A stretch of 64,000 nucleotides of DNA from Acidobacteriota bacterium. Lineage in GTDB: Bacteria > Acidobacteriota > Vicinamibacteria > Fen-336. Of this stretch, positions 22,792 to 29,171 are shown piece after piece. A model generated the notes under the pieces. The model worked only from the letters and a program-made list of their open reading frames with translations. It did no database searches and was not told where the DNA came from. The translations under genes were made by a program, and so were the position numbers. The stretch lies in the NCBI GenBank assembly GCA_022340585.1, contig JAJDNS010000041.1, positions 1-64,000 of the forward strand. Direction: 5' to 3'. How positions within the stretch are numbered: position 1 is the first letter of the stretch; the number at the start of each line of letters is the position of its first letter.

Positions 22792-24684
22792 TCAGGCGCT
22801 GGCGCGGAGCAGGACGGTGAGGACCTGCTCTTCGGCATCCGGACGGGGTCGGAGAAGACGCCCCCCGTTGGCCTCGATGAGCTTCTCGGCCGCCGCGAGA
22901 TCGGTCCGGCGGAAGCCCCGAGCGCTGCCCGCATCGGACCCGGGGGGGGAGCCCGGGTCGCCGACGGGCGCGCCCGGAGAGAAGATCTCGATGCGGGCGG
23001 CCGGACCGGGGCGTCCTCCCCGCACGCCCGCGTCCTCGGTCCGGGAGACCCGCACCCGGACCTCGCGGGGAGCTCCGCCCCGGTCGAGGGTGGTCGCCAG
23101 GAGCGAGGTGAGGGCCTCGCTCGCCTGGACGCGGTCGAGCAGGACCTCGGGCACGTCGTCCTCGGCCTCGAAGCGGACGAAGGCCCCGTCCTCCTCGCCC
23201 CGCACGGCGGCCAGCTGCTTGATCACCGTTCGCACCAGCTCCGGGGGCTGGGTGTAGCGGAGATTGAGGAGGACCCGGTGGCGGGCGGCGTGAAGGTCGC
23301 CCGCCGCGGGTCCGACCTGGTCTCCAGGTGCCGCGTCGGGCAGGACCTCTTCGTGGGCCGCTTCGTCCCCGGCCTCGCCCGCCCCGCGTCGGCGCGAGGG
23401 ACCCTCCGCTCCCGGATCCCCCTCCTCCTCGTCCAGCCCGGCCAGCCGGGGGTCGTCCTCGTCGAGGATCGTCTCGGCGAGGTTCCGGAACTGGAAGATG
23501 AGGCTCACCTCCTCGCGGAACTCGGCCGGCGCCTGCATGATCGACACCCCGACGTAGATGCGCGCGCCGCCGGGGGTGGTCATGGGGAAGTCCAGACGGT
23601 GCTCCGGAGAGACGGCGCTCAGGCCCGCCACGACCGCGGCCACGCCCTCGTTGTGGGCGAACAGGTCCACGACCGACCGTCCCACGCACTCGGACATGCT
23701 CGTCCCCAGCGTGCGGAGCGCCCCCAGGTTGGCGAAGGTGACGGCGCCGGTGCCGTCGGTCGTGAGGATGGCCGAGGCCTGGCTGTTGAGGATCGTCTCC
23801 GCGAACCGGCGTTGCTTCTCGACGCCGCTCAGGGCGGACTCCAGCTCCCGGGTGCGGTCGAGGACCGCCTCTTCGATGGCGCGGGCCGCCTGCCGGGCCG
23901 GGGCCTCCACCAGGGCGGTGACGTCGTTCTGGACGGCCACGAAGTGGGTGAGGCGTCCCTCGTCGTCCAGGACGGGAGCGGTGGTCAGGTCGTTCCAGAA
24001 GGGCTCGCCGTCCTTGCGGTAGTTCTTGAGCAGCACCCGCGACCGACGTCCCGCGGCCAGGGCGAGGCGGAGCTCGGTCATGGCGGCCACGTCGGTGTCG
24101 GGGCCGGTCAGGAGCCGCAGGTTGCGTCCCCGGATCTCGTCGGAGGAGTAGCCGGTGATCTCGCGAAAGGCCGGGTTGGTCTGGGTGACGGAGTACTCCG
24201 AGGACCGCGCGTCGAGCAGGGTCACCCCGACCGGGGCCTCCTCCACCGCCCGCTCCATGAGGCGTCGGCGTCGCTCCCGGTGGCGGCGGGTCAGGAGGGC
24301 GCGGGTGCGACCCCGGATCCGGGCCGGGTTGAGGGGCTTCGACAGGGTCTCGTCGGCGCCCACCGACAGCGCGAGCTCGACGGCCCGCTCGGAGATCAGC
24401 CCCACCATCAGGATGGGAGGCTGGTCGATCTCGGGCAGGGCGCGGATGCGGCCGCAGACCGAGATGCCGTCCATCACCGACAGGAACGCGTCGAGGACGA
24501 TCAGGTCGAGGTCGAGGCTCCGGGCCAGGGCCAGCGCCTCCACCCCGTCGACGGCGTCGGTGACGTCCACGGCCCTGACGTGGAGGATCTGGCGGAGGAG
24601 GTTGCGGGTGGCGGAGTCGCTCGTCGCGACGAGGATGGACGATCGCCGCGAGCCTGCCGGGGCTGGCCGTGACTCGGCGCTCAC
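22792..24684 (-). CDS. Response regulator receiver - LOV/PAS - PAS - degenerate HATPase-like protein
   Basis: LIVLDAFLSVMDGISVCGRIR receiver; ITGYSSDEIRGRNLRLLTGPDTD...NYRKDGEPFWNDLTTAPVLDDEGRLTHFVAVQNDVT LOV-like; C-terminal LAAAEKLIEANGGRLL. Confidence 0.82.
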   Translation of the reverse strand: MSAESRPAPAGSRRSSILVATSDSATRNLLRQILHVRAVDVTDAVDGVEALALARSLDLDLIVLDAFLSVMDGISVCGRIRALPEIDQPPILMVGLISERAVELALSVGADETLSKPLNPARIRGRTRALLTRRHRERRRRLMERAVEEAPVGVTLLDARSSEYSVTQTNPAFREITGYSSDEIRGRNLRLLTGPDTDVAAMTELRLALAAGRRSRVLLKNYRKDGEPFWNDLTTAPVLDDEGRLTHFVAVQNDVTALVEAPARQAARAIEEAVLDRTRELESALSGVEKQRRFAETILNSQASAILTTDGTGAVTFANLGALRTLGTSMSECVGRSVVDLFAHNEGVAAVVAGLSAVSPEHRLDFPMTTPGGARIYVGVSIMQAPAEFREEVSLIFQFRNLAETILDEDDPRLAGLDEEEGDPGAEGPSRRRGAGEAGDEAAHEEVLPDAAPGDQVGPAAGDLHAARHRVLLNLRYTQPPELVRTVIKQLAAVRGEEDGAFVRFEAEDDVPEVLLDRVQASEALTSLLATTLDRGGAPREVRVRVSRTEDAGVRGGRPGPAARIEIFSPGAPVGDPGSPPGSDAGSARGFRRTDLAAAEKLIEANGGRLLRPRPDAEEQVLTVLLRASA

Positions 24685-27034: not shown

Positions 27035-27071
27035 GCCACGTGTGTCCGGCCTCGGGCGAACGGGGGCAGCA

Positions 27072-29171
27072 ATGGGAAGACCACTCAAAGTCGTGGTCGT
27101 GGGCGACTCGCGGAACCGGGCCCTCCGGGTCGCCGCGGACCTCGAGCAGGCGGGCTACGCCCCATCCTTCTCCGCGGTCTCCTCGGAGGCCGAGCTCGCC
27201 GCCGCCGCCGGGGCGGACCCCGACCTGGTGGTGGCCTGGCGGTCGACTCCGTCCCTGCCGGCCGAGACCGCGCTGAAGGTCCTGCGGTCCACCGGTCGGC
27301 CCGTCCCGCTCTTCGTCTACGCAGAGACCTACACCGAGGAGGAGATCGTCGGTCTCGTGCGCGGTGGGGCCACGGACTGTCTCCGGAAGGGGGATCTGCC
27401 CCGCCTGCGGGCGGCAGTGGAGCGCGAGCTGGAGACTCGCGCCGCTCGTGGACGGCCGGGGGTCCTCGACGCCGCCGCCGTCGAGGACCGCTACCGGGCC
27501 CTGATCGAGGAGATACCGGCCCTGACCTACGTGGCCTGGGCGGACGAGAACGCGAGTCGCGCCTACGTGAGCCCCCAGCTGCAGGCCATGACCGGCTATA
27601 CCCCCGCCCAGTGGCTCTCGGAGCCCGACATGTGGGTGCGCCGCCTTCACCCCGGGGATCGCGAGCGCGTGCTCCGCCAGTTCCGCGAGGCGTGCGCCTC
27701 GAAGGGGCGGTTCGCCTCGGAGTACCGCATCCTGGACCACGAGGGCCGGGTCCTCTGGTGGCGCGACGAGGGCCGCCCCCTGGCCGGGCCCGACGGCTCG
27801 ACGCGCTTCATGCGGGGCTTCGTGCTGGACCTGACCGAGCAGAAGCTGGCGGAGGAGTCGCTCCGGCGCATGAGGTTCTACGACCAGCTCACCGGGCTGC
27901 CGAACCGCGTGCTCCTTCTCAACCGCCTCGGGAGGGGGCTGGCCGAAGCGGCCCGCACCGGGCAGCCCCTGGCCCTGCTCATCCTGGCTCTCGACCGGTT
28001 CCGGGAGATCGGCAACACGCTCGGCCACCACAACGCGGACCTGATCGTGCGCGATCTGGCGGCGCGGCTCGGCGACGTGCTCGGCACCTCCGACCGGGTG
28101 GCGCGGCTGCGAGGGGACGAGTTCGGGGTGCTGCTGCCGGACGCCGACGCCAGCGTCGCCGGTCAGATGGCGGCCCAGACTCTGAACGTGCTCGAGAAGC
28201 CGTTCCTGGTGCAGGAGCTGCCCATCGAGATCTCGGCCAGCGTCGGCATGGCCATCGCCCCGGAGCACGGGGCGGAGGCGGAGCTGCTGCTCCGTCGCGC
28301 CGACGTGGCCGTGCAGGCGGCCCGGAAGCTCGGGGGCGGGGCGTCGGTGGTGTACTCGAAGGAGCACGAGCCGCACGATCCTTCCCAGCTGGCCCTCCTC
28401 GGCGAGCTGAGGAGGGCACTCGAGAGGAACGAGCTGCTGCTCCACTATCAACCCAAGGTCGATCTGAAGAAGCGCACGGTGATCGGGGCGGAGGCGCTCC
28501 TGCGGTGGCCCCATCCGAGGCGGGGTCTGATACCGCCGACCGAGTTCATTCCCCTGGCCGAGCAGACCGGCCTCATGCGTCCGCTGACCCGGTGGGTGCT
28601 CCATCGGGCGATGGGGGAGACGAGGTCCTTCCAGCGGGACGGACGCGCCCTGCCGGTGGCGGTCAACGTCTCCGCCCGCAACCTCTACGACACCGAGATC
28701 CTCGACGACGTGGCCGACGCGCTCCTGACCAACGGCATGGCCGCCGATCGCCTCCAGCTCGAGGTGACGGAGCACGCGGTGATGGCCGACGCCGGCCGCG
28801 CGGCGGCGGTGCTGGGGGGATTGACGCGTCGGGGGGTTGGCGTGTCCATCGACGACTTCGGGACCGGGAACTCGTCGCTGCGGCTTCTCCGCCGCCTCCC
28901 GGTCGGGGAGCTGAAGATCGACCAGTCCTTCGTCGGTGGGATGATGGGGGAGGGCGGCGAGGACGCCGCCATCGTCCGGTCGACGGCCGACCTGGGCCAC
29001 AACCTCGGCATGACGGTAGTGGCGGAGGGGGTCGAGGACCAGTGGACCCTCGATGCCCTGACCGGGCTGGGCTGTGACTCCGCCCAGGGCTTCTACATCG
29101 CCCGTCCCATGGCCCCGGGGGACCTCGTCCGCTGGCTCGGGCAGTCACCCTGGCGCATGGTCGAGAGCTGA
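27072..29171 (+). CDS. Receiver-like/PAS/GGDEF(RGDEF)/EAL c-di-GMP signalling protein
   Basis: RLRGDEFGVLLPD; GAEALLRWPHPRRGLIPPTEFIPLAEQTGL; DDFGTGNSSLRLLRRLPVGELKIDQSFV. Confidence 0.93.
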   Translation: MGRPLKVVVVGDSRNRALRVAADLEQAGYAPSFSAVSSEAELAAAAGADPDLVVAWRSTPSLPAETALKVLRSTGRPVPLFVYAETYTEEEIVGLVRGGATDCLRKGDLPRLRAAVERELETRAARGRPGVLDAAAVEDRYRALIEEIPALTYVAWADENASRAYVSPQLQAMTGYTPAQWLSEPDMWVRRLHPGDRERVLRQFREACASKGRFASEYRILDHEGRVLWWRDEGRPLAGPDGSTRFMRGFVLDLTEQKLAEESLRRMRFYDQLTGLPNRVLLLNRLGRGLAEAARTGQPLALLILALDRFREIGNTLGHHNADLIVRDLAARLGDVLGTSDRVARLRGDEFGVLLPDADASVAGQMAAQTLNVLEKPFLVQELPIEISASVGMAIAPEHGAEAELLLRRADVAVQAARKLGGGASVVYSKEHEPHDPSQLALLGELRRALERNELLLHYQPKVDLKKRTVIGAEALLRWPHPRRGLIPPTEFIPLAEQTGLMRPLTRWVLHRAMGETRSFQRDGRALPVAVNVSARNLYDTEILDDVADALLTNGMAADRLQLEVTEHAVMADAGRAAAVLGGLTRRGVGVSIDDFGTGNSSLRLLRRLPVGELKIDQSFVGGMMGEGGEDAAIVRSTADLGHNLGMTVVAEGVEDQWTLDALTGLGCDSAQGFYIARPMAPGDLVRWLGQSPWRMVES

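Follow-up and report, generated by a model that had tools for sequence, protein, structure and literature searches.

An Acidobacteriota bacterium, represented here by a stretch of 64,000 nucleotides (the window), and four of its relatives carry a LOV-type domain that lacks the adduct cysteine and keeps the residues that hold the flavin. This domain, called Leu-LOV below, sits in a protein with an atypical receiver at its N-terminus and, behind Leu-LOV, a second PAS domain (PAS2) and a predicted pseudo-HATPase (Table 1). This is the layout proposed by the first-pass annotation: Pfam detects the receiver and the second PAS, and the degenerate ATPase is recognized by homology and fold. Given a lost cysteine, kept flavin residues, and non-canonical receiver and kinase parts, flavin-based redox sensing (or photoreduction) with signaling by contact appears the most likely function. 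The full model, whose chances we put near even, is a soluble, non-catalytic, NifL-like flavin sensor in which Leu-LOV would bind flavin without adduct formation, be switched by reduction, and give its output through protein contact.

Table 1 Features of the Leu-LOV gene in the window. Labels such as N61, F64, Q66, N94, N104, and Q123 follow YtvA numbering; 5/5, all five orthologues.
Feature	Positions	Strand	Basis
Whole gene, 630 aa, GTG start: receiver, Leu-LOV, PAS2, linker, pseudo-HATPase	22792..24684	-	ORF, Pfam, full-length orthologues
Receiver domain, atypical, residues 17-125	24310..24636	-	Pfam Response_reg 1.2e-15
Thr21-Ser22 at the expected acidic pair	24619..24624	-	By-eye alignment with receiver of L015
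Asp65, phospho-acceptor position, kept	24490..24492	-	
Gly95 at the conserved Thr/Ser position; Gly in 5/5	24400..24402	-	By-eye alignment
Lys116, conserved receiver lysine, kept; Lys in 5/5	24337..24339	-	
LOV-like PAS domain (Leu-LOV), residues 142-257	23914..24261; about 23904-24261	-	PAS_9 E 2.9e-26, structure and NCBIfam matches
GRNLRLLT motif, counterpart of GRNCRFLQ	24106..24129	-	Sequence, orthologue alignment
Asn188 (N61), flavin contact, 5/5	24121..24123	-	
Leu189 (CTG) at the adduct-cysteine position; Leu in 5/5	24118..24120	-	
Leu191 at the Phe64 position; Leu in 5/5	24112..24114	-	
Thr193 at the Gln66 position; T, T, R, K, R across the five orthologues	24106..24108	-	
Arg206, helix Arg of the flavin phosphate site, 5/5	24067..24069	-	
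Asn221 (N94), 5/5	24022..24024	-	
Asn231 (N104), 5/5	23992..23994	-	
Gln252 (Q123, signaling glutamine), 5/5	23929..23931	-	
Helical linker 262-300 between Leu-LOV and PAS2	23785..23901	-	Model secondary structure, low confidence
Second PAS (PAS2), residues 301-405	23470..23784	-	PAS_9 5e-8, 1.3e-7
Linker 406-466, poorly conserved, no DHp/H-box seen	23287..23469	-	Orthologue columns; pLDDT below 50
C-terminal GHKL/HATPase-like fold (predicted) without N, G1, F, G2 motifs	22795..23286	-	Homology and fold

In both sequence and fold, Leu-LOV is of the type of the canonical LOV photoreceptors. Its best match of solved structure is MrLOV of Meiothermus ruber (9vf7; phmmer E = 3.9e-36, ungapped over 120 residues), CagFbFP, a LOV of Chloroflexus aggregans, follows at about 1e-26 in the phmmer comparison with LOV structures, and the NCBIfam profiles for the blue-light LOV kinase (4.6e-31) and YtvA (1.6e-28) outscore that for NifL (1e-17). 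The domain model superposes on MrLOV with a TM-score of 0.95 by target and 0.8 Å over 103 columns at 54% identity, and it also superposes on the crystal form of CagFbFP C85A, likewise a LOV without Cys. A generic PAS domain of the GxNPRxLKSG type is ruled out, as trees group Leu-LOV with the LOVs and N104 and Q123 are kept. The LOV identity read in the first-pass annotation, whose quoted peptide is exact, thus stands.

The reported replacement of the adduct cysteine by Leu is borne out by the codon, both read and computed, and the suggested survey of homologues returned Leu in every orthologue; because all five agree, a sequencing error or one recent mutation is ruled out. The description as a single change does not hold, however, since three residues of the motif differ, with F64L and Q66T in addition. 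F64 and Q66 are nearly invariant in Cys-LOVs (55/58 each), whereas the G121 position, Ala in the orthologues (Thr in one), is also Ala in 16 of the 58 Cys-LOVs. The flavin contacts have been retained: none of the five orthologues departs from N61, R63, L65, the helix Arg, N94, N104, or Q123. The flavin-contacting Asn and Gln positions of the earlier reading are thus conserved, and the loss of contacts within the family that would have refuted it is not observed. The five orthologues represent four genera; with 46% of positions invariant across the LOV domain, complete invariance of the seven retained contact or motif residues has a chance of 0.003, with the caveat that kept residues may also matter for folding. 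Among 44 Cys-lacking LOV/PAS domains collected, N61, R63, N94, N104, and Q123 are kept together only in the five Leu-LOVs and in one Ser variant. The latter, in Aneurinibacillus sp. (L046, 6001-6414), is a natural Cys-to-Ser LOV with the motif KNSRFLQG.

Yee et al. defined Cys-less LOVs by the absence of Cys and at least nine of the other ten conserved residues (PMC4682037). Leu-LOV keeps seven of the nine named residues of this filter (G59, N61, R63, F64, L65, Q66, N94, N104, and Q123) and, without F64 and Q66, falls short of it. We found no natural Leu variant at the LOV Cys position in the literature. A structure of CagFbFP Q89E with FMN is, by its title, in the PDB, and position 89 aligns with Q66; by this analogy, changes of Gln66 need not abolish flavin binding. 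Counted against the full model are the bulkier Leu at the flavin C4a face, the changes of F64 and Q66, and the lack of a conserved neighboring gene that could hint at a partner. On the residues present, Leu-LOV likely binds flavin.

The strongest competing explanation, clearly less probable but worth entertaining, is that Leu-LOV no longer binds flavin and serves as a structural PAS module for dimerization or relay, with its polar residues kept for the fold or for another ligand. It fits the change of F64 and Q66 along with Cys, and it gains from a sister family (L014 and L015, REC-LOV-like-HK-REC; L018 and L074, REC-LOV-like) whose LOV-derived domains persist despite the loss of N61, Cys, Q66, the Asn pair, and Q123, which shows that a LOV domain without Cys can degenerate and serve without a ligand. 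The five orthologues, however, keep N61, R63, R206, N94, N104, and Q123 throughout at 51-67% whole-protein identity, whereas the decayed group displays what a lost pocket looks like. These four sister proteins, which also combine a receiver with a LOV-like domain, were considered as members of the same family and rejected, having a different receiver, forming a separate clade, and, in L014 and L015, carrying an intact-looking histidine kinase core behind the decayed domain.

Of 193 genomes in the class, five, the window genome among them, encode a full-length orthologue, and all five belong to one family; whole-protein identities to the window protein are 67% (G001), 58% (G002), 55% (G005), and 51% (G006). 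When 396 genomes of the phylum were searched with a LOV profile, no other Leu-type LOV domain appeared among the matches read. A 96-row tree unites the five Leu-LOVs in a single clade (100/99) within the Cys-LOVs, although monophyly of the Cys-LOVs is not rejected by the AU test (p = 0.257). With a cleaner set of 68 rows, from which the three changed columns were removed, the Cys-LOVs form one clade in none of 200 bootstrap trees and their monophyly is weakly rejected (AU p = 0.037); both alignments are short (112-115 columns). Since the five domains form one clade inside the cysteine LOVs, Cys was probably lost once within the Cys-LOVs and Leu kept thereafter, a single secondary loss being favored, not proven. 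A recurrent Acidobacteriota PAS group (L103, L116, L101, L102, L115, L119, L120, L122, L124, L127, L129, and L131) mostly has (S/T)PRxLQGP in place of NCRFLQGP, with N104 changed and Q123 kept; judged by these residues, it is LOV-like and possibly a further lost-cysteine group.

It is unlikely that the protein is a blue-light receptor proper, acting by photoreduction in a circuit with a canonical LOV-PP2C-like phosphatase of the same genome. Such a role would suit the distribution of canonical Cys-LOV proteins, found in four of the five genomes with Leu-LOV and in none of the nine without it in the 14-genome family (p = 0.005 ignoring ancestry, from small numbers and incomplete genomes), with carriers that do not group together by rpoB (monophyletic in at most 2% of bootstrap trees); Cys-less LOV proteins are, moreover, able to signal in light (PMC4682037). 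However, G006 has Leu-LOV but lacks a canonical LOV, the family yielded no match to rhodopsin or PHY (the rhodopsin control gave no signal), absences that are soft because the genomes are incomplete, and the natural Cys-less LOV of BAT photoreduces poorly (PMC4682037). The canonical Cys-LOVs of the Leu-LOV genomes are L001 (G000:C84), L073, L077, and L076, three of which are by eye fused to a PP2C-like phosphatase. The genes flanking the Leu-LOV gene differ between carriers, and no conserved neighbor or operon partner was found.

The receiver retains the Asp acceptor and the Lys of a phosphorylatable domain and lacks the acidic pair, which is Thr-Ser/Gly across the orthologues, and the Thr/Ser, replaced by Gly (both by-eye alignment). 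The sensor on a receiver protein proposed earlier is thus correct as to the receiver itself, but the receiver is atypical, and the window protein is therefore more than a usual response regulator to which a sensor has been added. Two genes away (27042-29171, plus strand), a PAS-GGDEF-EAL protein, whose GGDEF motif is RGDEF, begins with a receiver-like region that Pfam does not match to a receiver; its acceptor region reads VVAWRS, and the Asp is seemingly absent.

For the C-terminal 164 residues, Pfam gives no match even at E = 10, HATPase_c included. The orthologue profile of this region nevertheless matches the regular HATPase of L026 (E = 1.8e-12), whose ENALD, DQGPGI, FDPFFT, and GTGLGLA motifs face non-motif residues in the window protein, so that the histidine-kinase ATP motifs N, G1, F, and G2 are absent by this comparison; DxGxG and GxGxG are in none of the five orthologues. 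Foldseek assigns the AlphaFold model of the C-terminus (pLDDT 80) to the GHKL fold, with RetS, NtrB, and others at E of about 6e-8 and 270 structures at E up to 0.001, whereas the C-terminal profile gives only weak matches to PDB sequences, ribosomal protein S7 mixed with kinases. Homology and the modeled fold together confirm a predicted histidine-kinase ATPase fold without catalytic motifs. A DHp domain with a phospho-His has no Pfam match in the window protein and is not seen in the linker, and only 1 of the 65 columns of residues 406-470 is invariant across orthologues. That these motifs were misjudged and the protein, though divergent, still functions as a histidine kinase or response regulator is very improbable, Asp65, Lys116, and the clear GHKL character of the C-terminus notwithstanding, as DHp, DxGxG, and GxGxG are missing from all five orthologues and HATPase_c is unmatched.

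In the preferred reading of a contact-acting flavin sensor, the LOV-derived domain would bind FMN or FAD and form no adduct. The flavin would be switched by reduction, chemically by the redox state of the cell, with blue light a possible second input through photoreduction to the neutral semiquinone. Protonation of N5 would be read by the retained Gln252 and relayed via the helical linker and PAS2, altering the docking of the pseudo-HATPase, and perhaps of the receiver, on a partner protein, much as the redox regulator NifL holds NifA. We infer both redox as the main input and the docking on a partner.

The precedent invoked in the first-pass annotation is real and published: Cys-less LOV proteins signal via the neutral semiquinone, a 2015 list comprises about 70 that occur naturally, with Ala, His, Pro, and others at the Cys position, and chemical reduction of the Cys-less LOV of BAT gives a response (PMC4682037). 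In the proposal of Yee et al. 2015, redox-active flavoproteins were the ancestors of LOV photoreceptors (PMC4682037), and the Leu-LOV clade appears to be the reverse of that step, with Cys lost inside the cysteine LOVs and the Cys-less pocket constrained afterwards. More tentatively, the whole protein may be a conserved sensor whose modules are all missing some of the chemistry expected of them (adduct, phosphotransfer, ATP), its secondarily Cys-less LOV having reverted to a contact-acting flavin redox switch. If true, this would be a natural reversal from photoreceptor to redox sensor, with a pocket refitted by Leu and, in many cases, by a basic residue at Q66 (R/K). Together with the decayed sister group and a canonical LOV encoded in the same genome, the Leu-LOV orthologues form a small set for testing the Cys-less LOV pocket.

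Among known systems, NifL of Azotobacter vinelandii is similar in its flavin-type PAS, second PAS, and GHKL domain, and the window protein shares its PAS-PAS-GHKL order. The full-length AlphaFold model is poor (pLDDT 52) and was discarded as a guide to domain packing; it matches NifL of the NifL-NifA complex best and Brucella LOV-PAS-HK next, and given the quality of the model the NifL match reflects domain order only. Unlike NifL, the window protein has an added N-terminal receiver, no DHp-like segment, no ATP motifs, a domain that is LOV rather than NifL PAS by profile, and no NifA partner identified; against the NifL profile (TIGR02938, NCBIfam), it scores 63.9 bits in the LOV/PAS region only, below the cut-off of 242.45. 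The LOV histidine kinases (Brucella LOV-HK and MrLOV) are closest in LOV sequence and share the LOV-PAS-kinase order, but have Cys and kinase motifs. RetS-type regulators, which act by contact with another kinase, match in the GHKL fold and differ in their sensor domains and in having a DHp. Halobacterial BAT (PMC4682037) likewise joins a receiver to a LOV that lacks the adduct Cys and retains most flavin contacts, whereas it has Pro rather than Leu at the Cys position and GAF and HTH outputs rather than PAS2 and a pseudo-HATPase, and the window protein lacks F64 and Q66. Cys-less LOV proteins, one of them (BAT) with a receiver, are thus known already; new here are the pocket of Leu with T/R/K and the largely non-canonical scaffold.
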